Shown: positions 51,690-63,317 of the stretch, piece by piece
How the letters are laid out: each line of letters begins with the position of its first letter
Position numbering within the stretch: position 1 is the stretch's first letter
Assembly (NCBI RefSeq): GCF_004402695.1
Contig: NZ_SOFL01000028.1
Coordinates: 1,360-65,359 of the forward strand
Direction of reading: 5' to 3'
Length of the DNA stretch: 64,000 bases
Origin: Cryobacterium adonitolivorans
GTDB taxonomy: Bacteria; Actinomycetota; Actinomycetes; Actinomycetales; Microbacteriaceae
Notes under the pieces: generated by a model
The model's database searches: none
The model's input: only the letters and a program-made list of their open reading frames with translations
What the model was told of the DNA's origin: nothing
Made by a program: the position numbers and the translations under genes

Positions 51690-52532
51690 CTACGACTCCC
51701 GGGTGATCTCCACCTTCACGAACAGCTGCGATCCGCTCGACCCCGCGTACACGCCGCGCAGGGGGGCGATGTCGTTGTAGTCACGGCCGCGGCCCACGCC
51801 CACGTGCCGGTCGCCGATGTCGATCAGGTTGGTGGGGTCGAAGCCCCGCCACTCGCCGCAGAACCACTCCACCCAGGCGTGTGATTCCCCGGTGACGGTC
51901 TCGCCGATCCCGGCCTGAGGCTTGGGGTGCAGGTAGCCGGACACGTAGCGGGCCGGGATGCCCACCGACCGTAGCGCGCCGAGTGCCACGTGGGTGATGT
52001 CCTGACAGACGCCGCGCTTGTCGGCCCAGGCCTCGCGGGCATTGGTCTTGACCCCGGTGACACCCTGCACGTAGGCCATATTCTCGCCCACGAACCGGCA
52101 GATCGCCAGCGCCGCGTCACAGGGGTCCAGCCGGCCGGCGATCTCGGCGGCGCTGGCGACCACGTCCGCCGGCGGCTCGGTGAGTGAGGTCTGCCAGGAC
52201 TGTTCGACCGAAGAGGTCGAGCGGGCCACCAACGCCGCCAGGTCTTCCCACTGCATCGGATGCAGCTGGTGCTCTCGCGGCGACACCTCCACGAGGCTGT
52301 TGGCGGTGAGGGTGAGCTCGGCGTGCGGGGTGAGCACCTCGAACGACGACACCCTGGTGCCCCAGTAGTCCACGTAGTCGTGGTTGCTCGAGACGGGGCT
52401 GATGTCCAGGTTGGAATACAACACGAACTGGTCGGGTGACGTGACGGGCAGCATCCGTGCTTCGTTGTACGAGGTGGCCACCTCGCCCTGGTATCGGTAG
52501 CCGGTGGTGTGCCGGATTCGCAGGCGCTTCAC
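51690..52532 (-). CDS. Transglutaminase-like protein of the ATP-grasp/alpha-E cassette
   Basis: 280 residues. The N-terminal beta-domain (RIRHTTGYRYQGEVATSYNE) precedes a transglutaminase core. The catalytic triad is visible as Cys in RGVCQDITH, His in ESHAWVEWF and Asp in GFDPTNLIDIGD. These proteins act as peptidases or amide-bond enzymes. The gene overlaps the alpha-E gene by 4 bp and is the last of three. Known from conserved cassettes predicted to make and process a small peptide or peptide-tagged molecule; no product has been fixed. Confidence 0.93.
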   Translation of the reverse strand: MKRLRIRHTTGYRYQGEVATSYNEARMLPVTSPDQFVLYSNLDISPVSSNHDYVDYWGTRVSSFEVLTPHAELTLTANSLVEVSPREHQLHPMQWEDLAALVARSTSSVEQSWQTSLTEPPADVVASAAEIAGRLDPCDAALAICRFVGENMAYVQGVTGVKTNAREAWADKRGVCQDITHVALGALRSVGIPARYVSGYLHPKPQAGIGETVTGESHAWVEWFCGEWRGFDPTNLIDIGDRHVGVGRGRDYNDIAPLRGVYAGSSGSQLFVKVEITRES

Positions 52533-53458
52533 GAGGCCTCTCCAGTCCAGGTCGGCACCGCGCTGGTCGGGAAGTACCGGTGCCCGATCGACTCCGACGC
52601 GGTGCTGGTGGCGTCCTGCACCATGTCCATGTGTTTAGGCAGGTCGCCCAGGATTTCCATGATCGGCCGGTACTCCAGCTGGCTGCGGATCTGGCCGAGC
52701 ACCCGCTGCGACGACTCGGAGACGCCCAGCCGGTCGGTGCGCGGTTCCAGTTCCTGCAGGCACTGCTCGGCCCGGGAGATCGAGAACACGATCGACCGGG
52801 GGAACAGCCGGTCCAGCAGCAGGAACTCGGCGGCATTCCGCGCGGACGGCACCCCCCGGTAGGTGCGCAGGTACGACTCGTACGCCCCGCAGGAACGCAG
52901 GATCGTGGTCCAGGACGGTCCGCTGTTCTCGGTCAGCGACCGGGTGGCGAGCAGCCGCGCGGTCATATCGGCCTGTTCGAGGCTGCAGCCCAGGGTGAAG
53001 AAGTGCCAGGCATCGTCCCGGCTGGCGCTGGACTCGACGATGCCGACGGCCAGGGCGGCACGTTCGCGCACCCAGCCGAAGAAGTCGTGGGTTTTGGCAC
53101 TGGCGATGTTCCTCGGCATCCTCGTGTACGTGGTGTTCAGGCACTCCCACAGCTCGGTGGAGACGATCTCCCTGGCCCGGCGGGCGTTCTCCCTGGCGGC
53201 GCCGAGCGAGTAGGCGATCGAGGCCGGATGCGTGCGGTCGGCCGCCAGGGTCGCGAGCACGTCCTTGCGGGTGAGTTCACGGTCCGGCGGCACCGGGCTG
53301 CCCATCAGGTGCAGCAGCGACCGGCAGGCCAGGTTCTCCTCGATCCACGGATCTTCCAGAAGCAGCTGCAGGTGCACATCCAGGATGCGCGCGGTGCCGT
53401 CACTGCGTTCGATGTAGCGGCCGATCCAGAACAGGCTCTCGGCGATGCGGCTCAGCAT
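52529..53458 (-). CDS. Alpha-E domain protein
   Basis: 309 residues, all-helical, starting MLSRIAESLFWIGRYIERSD, the hallmark of the family. Middle signatures include NARRAREIVSTELWECLN and LGCSLEQADMTARLL. It is coupled to both neighbours by overlaps (7 bp with the ATP-grasp gene, 4 bp with the transglutaminase gene). Its biochemical role is unclear; in such cassettes it always accompanies a circularly permuted ATP-grasp protein. Confidence 0.94.
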   Translation of the reverse strand: MLSRIAESLFWIGRYIERSDGTARILDVHLQLLLEDPWIEENLACRSLLHLMGSPVPPDRELTRKDVLATLAADRTHPASIAYSLGAARENARRAREIVSTELWECLNTTYTRMPRNIASAKTHDFFGWVRERAALAVGIVESSASRDDAWHFFTLGCSLEQADMTARLLATRSLTENSGPSWTTILRSCGAYESYLRTYRGVPSARNAAEFLLLDRLFPRSIVFSISRAEQCLQELEPRTDRLGVSESSQRVLGQIRSQLEYRPIMEILGDLPKHMDMVQDATSTASESIGHRYFPTSAVPTWTGEAS

Positions 53459-55152
53459 TCGAGGGTCCCCTCCGCGTTGGCAGTCGCGATGTTGGTGGTG
53501 GTGGTGCGCTGCTGTTGTTGTTGCTGGTCCTGGTCCTGGTCGCCACCCGGCGGGGTGTCCTGCGGGGAATGGTCGACGACCCGGGTCGGGATGATGGCGA
53601 TCGACTGGGTGTTAGCGGCCTGGTCGTTGACCAGGCCCTGGATGTTGCGGGCCGACCCGTTGGTGTGGAAGTCGGGCTCGAGCCCGATCACCCAGGTGTC
53701 CTTCGACCCGCCGCCCTGGCTGGAGTTGACCACCAGCTCGCCCTCCGGCAGGGCCACCCGGGTGAGCCCGCCGGGCAGCACCCAGACATCCGACCCGTCG
53801 TTCACCGCGAATGGGCGGAGGTCGGCGTGCCGGGGCCGAATGCCGTCGTCGACGAGGGTCGGGATGGTGGACAGCTGCACCACAGGCTGGGCGATCCAGC
53901 CGCGCGGATCCAGGAGCAGCTGCCGACGCAGGGTCTCGAGTTCGGCCTTCGACGCTGCCGGGCCCACCACAAGGCCTTTACCGCCGGAGCCGTCGACGGG
54001 CTTGACGACGAGCTCGTCGAGCCTGTCCAGCACCTCTTCGAGCGCGAGCGGGTCTTCGAGCCGCCAGGTGTCGACGTTGGGTATGATCGCGTCTTCGCCG
54101 AGGTAGTACTTGATCAGCTCGGGCAGGTAGGTGTAGACGAGCTTGTCGTCGGCGACCCCGTTGCCCACGGCGTTGGCGATGGTCACATTGCCCAGCCGCG
54201 CGGCCATCAGGATGCCAGGCGAACCCAGTTGCGAGTCGGCGCGGAACTGCAGCGGGTCCAGGAACTCGTCGTCGACCCGGCGGTAGATCACATCGACCCG
54301 GGTAGGACCGGCCGTGGTGCGCATCCACACGCGGCCGCCGGAGCAGAAGAGGTCGCGGCCCTCGACGAGCTCGACGCCCATCAGGCGGGCGAGCAGGGTG
54401 TGCTCGAAGTAGGCCGAATTGAAGACGCCGGGGGTGAGCACCACGATGTTCGGGTCGTCGACGCCGGCCGGGGCCGAGGCGCGCAGGGCCTGCAGTAGTT
54501 TGTTGGGGTAGTCGCCCACCGGTCGCACCCGCATTGACACGAACAGCTCGGGCAGGGTCTGGGCCATCACACGCCGGTTGGAGATGACGTAACTGACCCC
54601 GCTGGGCACCCGCACGTTGTCTTCGAGCACCCGCCAGGCGCCCATCTCGTCGCGGATGAGGTCGATGCCTGACACCTGGATGCGTACGTTGTTCGCCGAG
54701 ACGATGCCCGCGGACTGACGGTGGAAGTGTGTGGACGAGGTGATCAGGCCGGCCGGGATGACGCCGTCCCGAACCGCGGCCTGGGGGCCGTAGATGTCGG
54801 CGAGAAAGGCTTCCAGTGCGAGGACCCGCTGCTTGATGCCGGCCTCGACGTTCACCCACTCCGGCTGCTCGATCACCCGGGGAACAGCGTCGAGGGGGAA
54901 CGGTCGTTCCTCGCCGGCGAAGTCGAACGTCACGCCCTGCGCCAGGTACGAACTGGCGAGCGCATCCGTACGGCCCCGCAGTTCTTCCTGCGTCATCCGG
55001 GCGAGGGCGGCGTACACGTCCTTGTAGGCGGCGCGCGCCTCTGAGGGGGAGAGCGACGACGGGTCAGGAAACATTTCGTCCCAGGCCGAGGTCCGGCCTC
55101 GCTCGCGGGGCGGGGCGGAGGTGGCGCCATAACCACTGAAGAGGTCAACCAT
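53452..55152 (-). CDS. Circularly permuted type 2 ATP-grasp protein
   Basis: 566 residues. The permuted ATP-grasp fold has SGIDLIRDEMGAWRVLEDNV near residue 165, GPTRVDVIYRRVDDEFLDPL, and a nucleotide-binding LDELVVKPVDGSGGKGLVVG near residue 395. It should make peptide-like amide bonds (carboxylate-amine ligase). The C-terminus carries an unusual low-complexity tail with DQDQDQ and a run of six glutamines followed by threonines. First gene of the three-gene cassette; all three overlap or nearly so. Confidence 0.94.
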   Translation of the reverse strand: MVDLFSGYGATSAPPRERGRTSAWDEMFPDPSSLSPSEARAAYKDVYAALARMTQEELRGRTDALASSYLAQGVTFDFAGEERPFPLDAVPRVIEQPEWVNVEAGIKQRVLALEAFLADIYGPQAAVRDGVIPAGLITSSTHFHRQSAGIVSANNVRIQVSGIDLIRDEMGAWRVLEDNVRVPSGVSYVISNRRVMAQTLPELFVSMRVRPVGDYPNKLLQALRASAPAGVDDPNIVVLTPGVFNSAYFEHTLLARLMGVELVEGRDLFCSGGRVWMRTTAGPTRVDVIYRRVDDEFLDPLQFRADSQLGSPGILMAARLGNVTIANAVGNGVADDKLVYTYLPELIKYYLGEDAIIPNVDTWRLEDPLALEEVLDRLDELVVKPVDGSGGKGLVVGPAASKAELETLRRQLLLDPRGWIAQPVVQLSTIPTLVDDGIRPRHADLRPFAVNDGSDVWVLPGGLTRVALPEGELVVNSSQGGGSKDTWVIGLEPDFHTNGSARNIQGLVNDQAANTQSIAIIPTRVVDHSPQDTPPGGDQDQDQQQQQQRTTTTNIATANAEGTLEC

Positions 55153-55222
55153 GTCTGGATGCTAGCCATCCGGTGTTGCCGGTTTGTTTCCTGACCATAT
55201 CGCCGCCGCACCCTCCGCATGA

Positions 55223-55306
55223 TGCATACAATATGAAGCGAACTCGCGACCCAATCGGGGCAAACTCTGGCACCAAAGGTGCGGGCAGGCGTCTTTTTTG
55301 CATACA
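55223..55306. promoter_or_regulatory. Two TGCATACA sites upstream of the fused ABC gene
   Basis: TGCATACA occurs at 55223-55230 and at 55299-55306, upstream of the fused ABC gene. FadR/GntR regulators bind GTATAC-like half sites, and a GntR gene lies at the other end of this gene. The region between the divergent starts (55153-55375) otherwise holds only promoter-like sequence. Confidence 0.35.
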
Positions 55307-55375
55307 GTTAGCTCAAGTCCGATTCTGACACCCGTCAGGCCACGATCCGGCCGCACCAAGCAGATCCGAGCACTC

Positions 55376-57043
55376 ATGCGCACAGTTGCAGGGCCCCGCT
55401 GGCTAGGGTTGTTGATCCTCTCCCTGACCGTCGGCGGCGTGCTCCTGGCGACCTGGCTCGGTGGCTCCGACAGTGCGCTGCTGCACACACTCTCGGCCCG
55501 GCTCCCCCTCGCGACCGCCGGCACCGTGGCCGCACCGATCCTGTCCGGCGTGCTGGGCATCGGCGGGGGCCTGCTGGCCGCTCGGCGGAACGGCTGGATC
55601 GACCCGAGACTGCGGTCGCTGGTTGCCGCCGGCTGCGCTGTCTGTCTGGCCTGGCTGGCGCTCATCCTTGTGTTCTGGTTCGCCGTCCAGGCCGAACTCA
55701 TGCCCGTGCTGGATGACGGGCCGACCGCCCATGCCGGTGCGGGCGCACTGAGCACCCTGCTCCTTCCCGCCACCGTGGTCCTCTTGGGTGGCGCAACGGC
55801 CATCACGGTGCATGTGCGCGCTGCGACTCGGATCGCCGCGATCGAAGGACACGTCCAGACCGCCCGGAGCCGGGGCCTTCCCACCACGGCGCTGGTCATC
55901 CGCCGGGTGCTCCGCCGCACGTTGCCCGCCATTCTGGCCGTCCTGCTCGTCGAGTTCGTGGTGCTCTACGCCGGCGCCCTGACCGTTCAGGCCGTGTTCA
56001 CGACGCCGTCCCTCGCCACTATGCTGCCGTCGCTGGCCGCGGAGAGCCTCCCGTTCGTGCTCGGGGCCTCCTTACTGTGTGTCGTCGGAGTGACCATGAC
56101 CGCCATTACTGTCGCTTCGGGGGCCCTCGGCCCCGCGGCCCGGAACCGGCCGCAGGCGAGGGCCGTTCACGGTGGGCTCGCCGCCGTCCTCATGGCGGAC
56201 CGTCGTCAGGCCGGACCGTCCGTGCCGTCCACCAGGTTTCGTTCGACCGATCTCCTCGATATCCGTGATCTGCACCTCCATGCCGGCTCGGCTCAGCTGC
56301 CTCGAGAGTTCCTGCGCGGCATCAGCCTCACGGCGGCCCGGGGTCAGGCCCTGGCGGTCGTCGGCGGCGGCGATGACGCCACCTCCATGCTGTGCCATGC
56401 CATCGCGGGCCTGCTCCCGCTCGGCCGTCCTGTGCTCTCCGGGTCGATCCTGTTCGACGGGACAGAGCTCGTCGGCCTGGCCGAGGGGGAGTTCCGGCAC
56501 CTGCGCGGGCACCACATCGGGTTCCTCGCCGCACCGGCAGCGGACAGACTGGACCCCGACATCCGCATCGGGCACCAGCTCACCGGAATCCTGACCGGAC
56601 GGCCTGAAGGCTCCCGCTCACGAACCCACTTCGCCGTCGCGTCGCTGCTGACCGCCGTCGGCATCGACGACACCGAGGCCGTGCTCGGGGCGTATCCGCA
56701 TCAGGTCTCGGCCGTGACCAGTCAACGTGTCCTGCTCGCGGGCGCCCTGGTTCGCGAGCCGCAGCTCCTCGTCGCCGACAATCCGACCGGGGGCCTCGAC
56801 GTTGCCGACGAGGAGAGCTTCCTCGACTCTTTGCACGCACTTCAGCGGGAGCGCGGCTTCACCCTCATCGTGGCGTCGCCCAGGGCCGAGATCATCACCG
56901 GGTGCGACCGTGTCGCGGTTATGAGCGACGGCACCATTGTCGAGTACGCTTCGGTCCGCGAGCTGCTGCACGACCCCCGTCACCCGCACAGCCGGCGGCT
57001 GCTCGCCGACGGCCCGTCGGGGCCTCAGCCGATCGGCCTCTGA
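55376..57043 (+). CDS. ABC permease fused to a degenerate Opp/Dpp-type ATPase domain
   Basis: 555 residues from ATG 55376; a TTG at 55298 would add 26. The N-terminal half (about 1-250) is a peptide-type permease with five to six helices and a coupling loop HVQTARSRGLPTTALVIRRV. The C-terminal half (about 290-540) is an Opp/Dpp-like ATPase in outline, but the key sites are altered. The Walker A lysine position is T336 in GGGDDATSML. The Q-loop Gln is A386. The signature is VSAVT (444-448). Walker B reads ADNPTGGLD, with N469 in place of the glutamate. The H-loop His is S501. The D-loop and the frame are intact. No binding protein or partner permease is adjacent. Probably not a functional ATPase by itself; role unknown. 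Confidence 0.85.
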   Translation: MRTVAGPRWLGLLILSLTVGGVLLATWLGGSDSALLHTLSARLPLATAGTVAAPILSGVLGIGGGLLAARRNGWIDPRLRSLVAAGCAVCLAWLALILVFWFAVQAELMPVLDDGPTAHAGAGALSTLLLPATVVLLGGATAITVHVRAATRIAAIEGHVQTARSRGLPTTALVIRRVLRRTLPAILAVLLVEFVVLYAGALTVQAVFTTPSLATMLPSLAAESLPFVLGASLLCVVGVTMTAITVASGALGPAARNRPQARAVHGGLAAVLMADRRQAGPSVPSTRFRSTDLLDIRDLHLHAGSAQLPREFLRGISLTAARGQALAVVGGGDDATSMLCHAIAGLLPLGRPVLSGSILFDGTELVGLAEGEFRHLRGHHIGFLAAPAADRLDPDIRIGHQLTGILTGRPEGSRSRTHFAVASLLTAVGIDDTEAVLGAYPHQVSAVTSQRVLLAGALVREPQLLVADNPTGGLDVADEESFLDSLHALQRERGFTLIVASPRAEIITGCDRVAVMSDGTIVEYASVRELLHDPRHPHSRRLLADGPSGPQPIGL

Positions 57044-57054
57044 CCACCGACGAA

Positions 57055-57726
57055 TCAGCCCTTAGCGCCCGAGATGGCGTTGCGGGCTCCGAGGATGTGC
57101 GCCCGCATGGCCACCTCGGCCCACATCGAGTCTCCGGTGCGGAGCGCGGTGAGGATGTCGCGGTGCTGGTGGTTGCTCCTCGCCCGGTACTCGGTGCCGC
57201 GCCGACGGAAGGCATCCGCCATCAGCGGCACCCGGGAGACGGACGACGTGAGGGTCATCAGCTGGGGGCTGCGGGAGGCCGCAACCACGATGTGGTGGAA
57301 TTCGGCGTTGAGGCTTCCCAATGCGGCGATGCCTGCGTCGTCATCCGCTGTCAGCACGGGTTCCATGGCGTCGATCAGCACGGCGAGCCTGTCGAGTTCA
57401 TCCACCGTGATGCGGCTGGCGGCCAGACCTGCTGCCCGGCTCTCGAGTCCGGCGCGCACAATATAGGTCTCGCGGAGTTCCTCGACGGTCCAGGCCACGA
57501 CGGTGGCACCGCGATTGGGCACGAAGGTCACGAGTCCGGCCTCGTCCAGGCGGCGCAAGGCTTCCCGCACCGGCGTCCGGCTCACTCCGAGTTCCGCAGC
57601 AAGAGCCTGTTCCCTCAGCGTGGTGTTGGCGCTCAACTCACCTGACAGGATCCGGGCGCGCAGGGTCAGGTAGACCGTTTCACCACCTGTAGACGCCACC
57701 GGTCCCCCGTCCGCTGACAGGGGCAC
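57055..57726 (-). CDS. GntR-family transcriptional regulator, FadR subfamily
   Basis: 223 residues from GTG 57726. The winged helix (about 20-85) holds LREQALAAELGVSRTPVREA and DEAGLVTFVPNRGATVVAWT. The all-helical FCD ligand domain follows, with metal-binding-type residues (LNAEFHHIVVAASRSPQL, NHQHRDILTALRTGD). It is convergent with the fused ABC gene, 11 bp apart, and is its most likely partner. FCD domains bind small carboxylic acids. Target sites are not established. Confidence 0.92.
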   Translation of the reverse strand: MPLSADGGPVASTGGETVYLTLRARILSGELSANTTLREQALAAELGVSRTPVREALRRLDEAGLVTFVPNRGATVVAWTVEELRETYIVRAGLESRAAGLAASRITVDELDRLAVLIDAMEPVLTADDDAGIAALGSLNAEFHHIVVAASRSPQLMTLTSSVSRVPLMADAFRRRGTEYRARSNHQHRDILTALRTGDSMWAEVAMRAHILGARNAISGAKG

Positions 57727-57852
57727 ACCCCACCCGCATGTTGAGCTTTACACACTGGAGGCGCCCGGCGGGCGGATACGCCGCAAATCACGCCTGAACG
57801 CCGCGTATTGGGGGTGGCCGGTCCCCGTTTGCACCATCGTGAGCAGGGCGCG

Positions 57853-62180: not shown

Positions 62181-62344
62181 CTCGGGGACCCGTCTCGACG
62201 ATGACGGCGAGGCCGGCCCTCAGCTCCTCGAAGGGGCTGGCGCCGGTCTCCACCAGCGCGGTCGGGCAACTCACCACGCTGTACATGAACGACTCGGCCG
62301 GCGGTATGGCACGTGCGGCGATCTCGTTCCCTATCGACCTTTGG

Positions 62345-62364
62345 CATCCACCGGGTGGTGGATG
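62345..62364. terminator. Small hairpin between aminotransferase and ABC-2 genes
   Basis: CATCCACC-GGGT-GGTGGATG is a perfect 8-bp stem with a 4-base loop, without a T-run. The 240-bp gap around it shows no gene I can support. Confidence 0.4.
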
Positions 62365-62420
62365 GGCAGGTCGGTCGGGAGGGTGTTGCCCAGACTCGGC
62401 ACCGGGACGATTGTGGGTAC

Positions 62421-63317
62421 ATGACTACTTCACCTCCGGCCGTGCGCGTCTCGCGGCTGAGCAAGTCGTATGGCCCGTTCGACGCCGTCAACGACATCAG
62501 CTTCGACATCGGCCCCGGCGAGACCTTCGCGCTGCTCGGCCCGAACGGGGCCGGCAAAAGCAGCACCATCGAGATCCTCGAGGGCTACCGCGACCGCTCA
62601 GAGGGTGACGTCACGGTGCTGGGCGAGGACCCGCAGCACGCCGGTTTGGACTGGAAGGCCCGCATCGGCATCGTCCTGCAGTCCAGCGGCGAGAGCGGCA
62701 ACGCCACCGTGCTCGAGCAGTTGCGGCACTTCGCGAGCCTGTACCCGGACCCGCGCCCGGTGGAGGAGGTCCTCGCGGCCGTCGGGCTTGAGGAGAAGGC
62801 GAAGACCCGCATCCACAGGCTCTCCGGCGGGCAGCAACGCCGGGTGGATGTCGCGCTCGGCATCATCGGCCGGCCGGAACTGCTCTTCCTGGACGAGCCG
62901 ACCACCGGTTTCGACCCCGAGGCCAGGCACCAGTTCTGGGATCTCATCCGCACCCTCAAGTCGGAGGGCACCACCATCCTGCTGACCACCCACAACCTCG
63001 ATGAGGCGGCGGAGCTCAGCGACCGCGCCGGCATCATCGTGGGCGGCAAGCTCATCGACATCGGCGCCATCGACGAACTTGGCGGCCCCGCCGCCCGGAT
63101 CCCGCTGGTGCGCTGGCGGGACGCCGACGGGGCGCAGCGGGAGACGCGCACCGAGACACCTGCCGGCCTGGTCGCCCAACTGGCCAGGGACCTCGGCAGC
63201 GAACCCGCCGAACTGCAGGTCATCCGCCCCAGCCTCGAAGACATCTATCTGGGCCTGGTGCGCGGCCACGCGGCCGGCAGCACCAGCGACACCGCAAGCA
63301 CGGAGGTGCTCGCATGA
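62421..63317 (+). CDS. ABC-2 type transporter ATP-binding protein
   Basis: 298 residues from ATG 62421. Walker A LLGPNGAGKSSTIEIL near residue 42, signature RLSGGQQRRVDVALG, Walker B LLFLDEPTTGFDPEAR and H-loop LLTTHNLDEAAELS are all complete. The C-terminal extension of about 80 residues is like the DrrA/NatA group. It overlaps the permease gene by 4 bp (ATGA). Likely exports a drug, lipid or polymer precursor. Confidence 0.95.
   Translation: MTTSPPAVRVSRLSKSYGPFDAVNDISFDIGPGETFALLGPNGAGKSSTIEILEGYRDRSEGDVTVLGEDPQHAGLDWKARIGIVLQSSGESGNATVLEQLRHFASLYPDPRPVEEVLAAVGLEEKAKTRIHRLSGGQQRRVDVALGIIGRPELLFLDEPTTGFDPEARHQFWDLIRTLKSEGTTILLTTHNLDEAAELSDRAGIIVGGKLIDIGAIDELGGPAARIPLVRWRDADGAQRETRTETPAGLVAQLARDLGSEPAELQVIRPSLEDIYLGLVRGHAAGSTSDTASTEVLA

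Follow-up and report, generated by a model that had tools for sequence, protein, structure and literature searches.

An ABC cassette without catalytic residues, retained under selection in the genus Cryobacterium beside a putative control circuit

The closest described relatives of the gene treated here are DppD/OppD and the fused permease/ATP-binding proteins of the Opp/Dpp peptide importers, with which it shares sequence family and fold; a fused permease is found in six of six intact relatives tested. Cassettes with altered ATP sites are known among the exporters of the ATP-binding cassette (ABC) group: an excerpt of PMC7756269 describes degenerate sites as common there and gives, for nucleotide-binding site 1 (NBS1) of Pdr5, changes in all motifs (K to C, E to N, H to Y, and LNVEQ). 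Related to regulation, excerpts of two further sources describe an FCD-type GntR protein with DNA looping and palindromes of the TGYATRCA kind, one of them over a -10 box (PMC7797058), and FadR-subfamily sites as palindromes with TKGT/ACMA boxes (PMC4494728). The gene in question belongs to Cryobacterium adonitolivorans and lies in a stretch of 64,000 nucleotides (assembly GCF_004402695.1, contig NZ_SOFL01000028.1, positions 1,360 to 65,359), which is called the window here. It encodes a permease half fused to an Opp/Dpp-type ABC cassette devoid of catalytic residues, and it is convergent with a gene for an FCD-type GntR regulator (Table 1).

Unlike DppD and OppD, the window protein lacks the catalytic motifs, its permease half is of another type than that of the intact fusions, and no binding protein is encoded on its contig. 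It resembles Pdr5 in having a site in which Lys, Glu, His and the signature have each been changed; in Pdr5, however, this is one of two sites in a working transporter, whereas here the cassette often stands alone, free of any permease. PhnK and PhnL of the C-P lyase are also comparable, but PhnK appears with ATP, ADP or AMPPNP in the titles of PDB entries and the motifs for ATP are lost here. With the Atu1419-type looping repressors (PMC7797058, in excerpt) the locus has in common the FCD-GntR gene and a pair of TGYATRCA-type sites, of which one covers a -10-like box; the spacing is about 75 bp here and 190 bp there, and the putative target here is a dead cassette. No report of a fully dead ABC cassette surviving alone after the loss of its transporter was found among the titles listed from open-access PMC. 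Among kinases and proteases, catalytically dead members are well known to serve as regulators.

The feature is real, and a firmer one than the preliminary description, made from this sequence alone, could know: a cassette that lacks the catalytic residues is under selection throughout the genus, where it has acquired a motif of its own and is accompanied by a putative control circuit. The best reading, to which a probability of roughly 0.6 is given, is that of a vertically inherited, GntR-controlled, non-hydrolysing adaptor which derives from the cassette of an Opp/Dpp peptide importer and has been kept for another job.

Table 1. Features of the locus, in window coordinates.
Feature	Position	Strand	Basis
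Pseudo-ATPase gene, 555 aa: permease half fused to dead Opp/Dpp-type ABC cassette	55376..57043	+	Pfam, alignments, omega 0.13-0.21
Permease half, residues 1-282	55376..56221	+	Pfam, similarity, hydropathy of relatives
Coupling-loop (EAA-like) segment GHVQTARSRGLPTTALVIRRVLRRTLPA	55847..55930	+	alignments; putative placement
ABC cassette domain, residues 283-555	56222..57043	+	Pfam; AlphaFold; PDB matches
Derived linker motif PSxxFRxxxxLDxRxL, residues 284-299	56225..56272	+	alignment, identity comparison
Walker A remnant VGGGDDATSML, Lys position 336 = Thr	56360..56392	+	alignment
Segment 355-370 (GSILFDGTELVG core)	56438..56485	+	better conserved in dead family than in intact relatives
Q-loop Gln position = Ala386	56531..56533	+	alignment
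Signature remnant VSAVT	56705..56719	+	alignment
Walker B LLVADN, D468 retained, Glu position 469 = Asn	56765..56782	+	alignment
D-loop GLDV, Asp475 retained	56792..56803	+	alignment
H-loop His position = Pro502	56879..56881	+	alignment
Convergent FCD-type GntR regulator gene	57055..57726	-	Pfam GntR E 2.1e-20, FCD E 4.1e-22; omega 0.067
Operator-like site 1, distal upstream, TGCATACA	55223..55230	+	motif count, conservation
Operator-like site 2, proximal, TGCATACA	55299..55306	+	motif count, conservation
TACAGT, candidate -10 box overlapping site 2	55303..55308	+	conservation; putative -10 reading

In the window protein, Pfam recognises BPD_transp_1 at residues 61-244 (E = 1.1e-13) and ABC_tran at residues 313-471 (E = 9.1e-11). 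The ATG start is conserved as ATG in 11 of 11 members of the fused clade; an alternative longer TTG start at 55298 falls inside promoter site 2. An alignment with 25 intact relatives from other genera places T336 at the Walker A Lys, A386 at the Q-loop Gln, A446-V447 at the Gly-Gly of the signature, N469 at the catalytic Glu and P502 at the H-loop His; the Walker B and D-loop Asp residues are retained. The protein thus has the domain and the OppD/DppD fold of an Opp/Dpp ATPase and none of its catalytic residues (Lys, Gly-Gly, Gln, Glu, His). The preliminary description had reported five altered motifs in a clean 1.67-kb frame with a surviving D-loop. The frame, which has no internal stop, the D-loop and the replacements of Lys, Gln, signature and Glu all stand; the H-loop residue had been given as S501, which is the neighbouring Thr position. 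The cassette is also the weakest domain-spanning ABC_tran match of its own genome (46.6 bits, the next being 61.1, with 102 matches listed).

A cassette-profile scan of 57 genomes of the genus (its own included), after which the neighbourhoods were fetched, places the gene at one syntenic locus, between a side with ramB, transglutaminase, Alpha-E and ATP-grasp genes and the rplA-rplK-nusG genes, with at least one flanking marker each; the flanking gene that we take to be ramB shows only a helix-turn-helix domain in Pfam. The cassette frame is open and full-length in 42 genomes, open with internal deletions in three (L125, L133, L135) and broken in one (L136). The scan and the neighbourhoods did not reveal the gene in the remaining 11 (L126-L132, L134, L137-L139), and some of these absences may reflect limits of assembly or search: L132 and L134 are on short contigs and L139 is without upstream marker genes. 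The cassette match of L131 is an ordinary ABC ATPase with intact motifs and was scored as not found. Second copies lie elsewhere in four genomes (L119, L120, L121 and L144, the last with a frame that lacks about the first 50 cassette residues). These non-syntenic dead cassettes carry Met at the Walker A Lys (GESGSGM), and their ratio of nonsynonymous to synonymous substitution rates (dN/dS, omega) is 0.068.

When the 42 syntenic and four second copies are compared, with the four eroded copies excluded, the Walker A Lys is missing from 46 of 46, which read Ala in 33 cases, Thr in 9 and Met in 4, while each of the 25 intact relatives from other genera has it, so the loss of motifs, as judged from the alignments, exceeds chance. 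The catalytic Glu persists in 9 of the 46, the H-loop His and the first signature Gly in 1 each, the second Gly and the Q-loop Gln in none, the Walker B Asp in 31 and the D-loop Asp in 18. At the Lys position the eroded copies have Arg in three cases and Ala in one. In a maximum likelihood tree of 74 cassettes, with three double-cassette (GsiA-like) proteins as outgroup, the 46 dead cassettes are monophyletic (support 93) and nested within intact relatives; vertical inheritance within the genus, which forms part of the best explanation, is inferred. A family-wide scan covered 299 genomes and gave many more matches, and motifs were read in 25 of the best ones outside the genus, one per genome; since reading was confined to these, dead copies may exist in other genera.

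In the 11 fused-clade members, codon models (IQ-TREE, GY+F3X4) put omega at 0.207 in the permease half and at 0.128 in the cassette; the values are 0.152 in 17 cassette-only members and 0.218 in the 7 members of a third clade. When omega is set to 1, with kappa fixed at 2.1, the fit worsens by 279, 437, 502 and 161 log-likelihood units, respectively. Small sets of three to four sequences gave 0.031 (saturated, with a tree length of 14.7), 0.068 and 0.076. By the NG86 method, among the nine closest pairs listed per set, the values were 0.27-0.52 for the permease half, 0.25-0.43 for the fused cassette and 0.12-0.25 for the cassette-only forms. The cassette gene is constrained, though less than its neighbours. 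The selection on a non-catalytic cassette that the preliminary description had proposed is consequently supported, omega = 1 being rejected in the larger groups. It had also named intact motifs at the same locus, together with a dN/dS near 1, as the signs of a decaying gene, and the result was the opposite: the same-locus relatives are all without the Lys, omega is 0.13-0.22 in the larger groups, and open frames are kept in 42 of 57 genomes instead of being frequently broken.

The constraint has moved within the domain. Mean pairwise identity over the whole domain is 0.47 in the dead family and 0.62 in the intact set. The catalytic regions fall to 0.48 against 0.92 (Walker A), 0.41 against 0.95 (Q-loop), 0.45 against 0.86 (signature helix), 0.55 against 0.89 (Walker B) and 0.41 against 0.79 (H-loop), while the linker motif (283-299) rises to 0.67 against 0.27 and segment 355-370 to 0.70 against 0.38. 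On this comparison, the catalytic motifs have dropped from the best-kept parts to about the average, and the linker and segment 355-370 are now the best kept. The pattern PSxxFR....LD is near-invariant in the dead family only. When the intact sequences were extended upstream of the BLAST hit, the residues strongly gained were P284, S285, F288, R289 and D295, and those weakly gained A344, L359, V366, R371, R375, L406, A525 and S526. Two further candidates for derived changes were rejected: loss of an FeS C-terminal domain, because seven intact relatives whose ends were examined also stop soon after an HPYT-like segment, and the invariant Cys510, which intact relatives have too.

AlphaFold models residues 321-540 of the window protein with a predicted local distance difference test (pLDDT) score of 70-93 per block, and the best PDB matches are OppD/DppD. 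The permease half is poorly modelled in the full protein (mean pLDDT 64.8), so no claim is based on it. In the permease-free form of L085 (alignment of 35 sequences) the score is about 90 or higher over most of the cassette, and residues 14-50, which bear most of the PSxxFR motif, are below 50; VIA-align was run on the top 1000 Foldseek matches of this short form. Since the motif is conserved and yet lies in a predicted flexible linker, it is suggested that PSxxFR may be a binding motif.

Parts of the transporter around the cassette were lost in steps. L104 and L105 have two permeases, a separate one and, after it, one that is fused to the dead cassette; their sequences suggest that the separate one is DppB-like and the fused one DppC-like. 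In L103 the permease before the cassette is chimeric, with a body resembling the separate permease and a tail resembling the fused one. The window permease half scores 77.8 bits with the separate DppB-like permease of L105, 35.0 with its DppC-like half, and at most 40.4 with the permease halves of six intact fusions. A permease is in frame with the cassette in 14 of 42 genomes (the window, ten others of its clade, L103, L104 and L105). The dependence on a fused permease implied by the preliminary description is not borne out, as the other 28 have none in frame. Neither a binding protein nor a second permease, both expected nearby in an Opp/Dpp system, accompanies the window gene: the four SBP_bac_5 genes of the genome are on contigs C29, C38, C49 and C52, none on its own contig (C57), where the nearest other BPD_transp_1 match is about 20 kb off. 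The two are split rather than fused in L111, where, from about 5035 as read along the strand of the cassette gene, permease and dead cassette occupy separate overlapping frames. The term EAA loop, applied to the coupling segment of Table 1, follows the use in an excerpt of PMC12136057.

Upstream of the gene, TGCATACA occurs twice, and nowhere else in the window (expected 0.24; 3 of 100 shuffles reach two). At the proximal site, TTGCATACAGT is the single occurrence in the 3.67-Mb genome, the reversed control giving 0; the looser TTGCATACAGTTAG, with up to three mismatches, has one match in the window against 0.71 expected and is uninformative. For scoring across loci TGYATRCA was taken as the site, with L131, L132 and L139 unscored and second copies left out of the count. 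Of the 28 loci that carry the convergent GntR gene together with the cassette gene, eroded copies counted, 26 have a pair of sites upstream. The pair is lacking in 18 of 18 with the cassette gene and no convergent GntR gene (L096 has a single site), in 3 of 3 with GntR and no cassette gene (a single site remains in L134) and in 5 of 5 where both genes are absent. Fisher's test for 26/28 against 0/26 gives p = 2e-13 with phylogeny ignored. The sites are 73-77 bp apart in 25 of the 26 loci and 65 in L143.

A T stands two bases beyond site 2 in 22 of 26 loci, which would fit a TANNNT -10 box, the actinobacterial consensus; a sigma-70 scan of 55100-57800 gave no promoter. Two TGTATACA-like palindromes upstream, as expected for the looping target of an FCD-GntR protein, are present in the window and in 26 of the 28 loci that have both genes. 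The GntR protein may bind these putative sites. The link to the convergent regulator suggested by the preliminary description is supported at the level of the promoter, not at that of the protein. Dependence on the convergent gene is not supported: it is missing in 17 of 42 genomes and was rejected as an obligatory partner. In 17 permease-free short-clade genomes (L085-L098, L100, L106, L113), the 160 bases upstream contain other conserved blocks, around ACCGGTACGT, GCACCAGAGA and GAAATGCGAGC; these are distinct from the TGCATACA pair and may belong to another regulator.

The preferred reading of an adaptor is based, as far as sequences and models allow, on the loss of the catalytic motifs, a cassette fold that the models still show, purifying selection, the gained linker motif, the stepwise disappearance of importer parts, and twin sites that co-occur with the FCD-GntR gene. 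Retention by most of the genus, with a new motif and often beside a regulator gene, suggests a different present job. ATP hydrolysis, and probably tight ATP binding too, would have been lost in an ancestor of the genus. The GntR protein would bind both sites, one overlapping the -10 box, and repress by bridging about seven helical turns until a metabolite releases it. The protein so released would act by binding a partner through the face of the beta-subdomain and the linker motif, as a form anchored in the membrane by the leftover permease in the window, and as a free cytosolic domain in most genomes. The partner may be a peptide-permease subunit that survives, or else a protein encoded in the local catabolic island.

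Several observations weigh against this reading. The gene can be lost, as 11 of 57 genomes yielded no copy and four others have a damaged one, and its neighbours in the same 11 loci have lower omegas (GntR 0.067, rplA 0.025, the transglutaminase-like gene 0.025). The operator statistics take no account of shared ancestry; L104 (one TGCATGCA) and L133 (one site) have both genes and no site pair; the second copies of L119-L121 were scanned and have no site, though a GntR homologue (62%) is present close to those of L119 and L121. The GntR gene and the sites are missing in 17 cassette-only short-clade genomes, in which, moreover, the remnants of Walker A (identity 0.85) and the H-loop (0.84) exceed the domain (0.76), so that the old site is not simply drifting there.

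Some of these points would agree with slow decay, in which the gene would be a peptide-importer relict that is still disappearing and has no present function. The series from separate permease plus fusion (L104/L105) through chimera (L103) and single fusion (window clade) to the 28 of 42 genomes with no permease in frame, the 11 absences and four eroded copies, and an omega about 2 to 8 times that of the neighbours all fit it; nevertheless, in sets of which every member is without the Lys omega stays far below 1, 42 frames are open, and the new motif and promoter sites are conserved, so decay is considered unlikely. Equally improbable is a poison or brake subunit, in which the dead cassette, with or without its permease, would dock on an intact Opp/Dpp permease and lower peptide uptake once GntR is released. 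The genome does hold four SBP_bac_5 genes and further permeases and cassettes, OppD/DppD is both the fold and the nearest relative, and a coupling-loop-like segment persists; but the parts that would dock on a permease, the Q-loop (0.41) and helical subdomain (0.40), are below the overall identity of 0.47, against 0.95 and 0.57 in intact relatives.

An active asymmetric transporter, with the cassette as half-dead partner of an intact one as in TAP or Pdr5, has very little to recommend it, even though degenerate sites are frequent in ABC exporters and NBS1 of Pdr5 is altered in all motifs (PMC7756269, in excerpt). A simple heterodimer with one good site is unlikely because both the Walker A side and the signature side of the same cassette are damaged, which would affect both composite sites. 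Moreover, the locus has no Opp/Dpp partner cassette, although a partner may lie farther away; the closest other cassette is found 5 kb downstream and has the look of an intact exporter ATPase of the ABC-2 type. The missing SBP_bac_5 gene, the distant BPD_transp_1 match and the permease-free frames point the same way. The adaptor reading may tentatively be extended to a genus-specific class of pseudo-ABC proteins, a stand-alone, metabolite-controlled module for binding or signalling, marked by PSxxFR....LD, that would have outlived permease, binding protein and, in many species, the regulator; such a class is rather less probable than the adaptor itself. Together with permease-bearing intermediates, 25 intact sequences as an outgroup and a regulator that is putatively dedicated to the gene, the 46 related copies form a family resource in which the path from part of an ATP-driven machine to non-catalytic module can be traced and tested step by step in Cryobacterium.

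With respect to the surroundings, the window carries minus-strand transglutaminase-like, Alpha-E and circularly permuted ATP-grasp genes at 51690-55152 (Pfam), a block that adjoins the cassette gene in many, not all, relatives. Downstream, positions 62313-63317 encode the exporter-like cassette mentioned above (GPNGAGKSS, LSGGQ, LDEPT), followed by a membrane protein frame. In many relatives, genes for an acyl-CoA dehydrogenase and a CoA-transferase come after the GntR gene (Pfam at one locus, L142), and the opposite strand carries another gene of the GntR family together with genes for an aldehyde dehydrogenase and an amino-acid permease; between GntR and rplA the window has none of these. 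These neighbours hint that the old context may have been the catabolism of amines or dicarboxylates. No conserved partner gene adjoins the permease-free forms, among which the second GntR, aldehyde dehydrogenase and amino-acid permease genes vary. In L087, L088, L089, L095, L100 and L106 a same-strand second GntR-family gene starts within about 30 bases of the cassette stop and is followed by an aldehyde dehydrogenase gene, an amino-acid permease gene or both, in what is possibly an operon.
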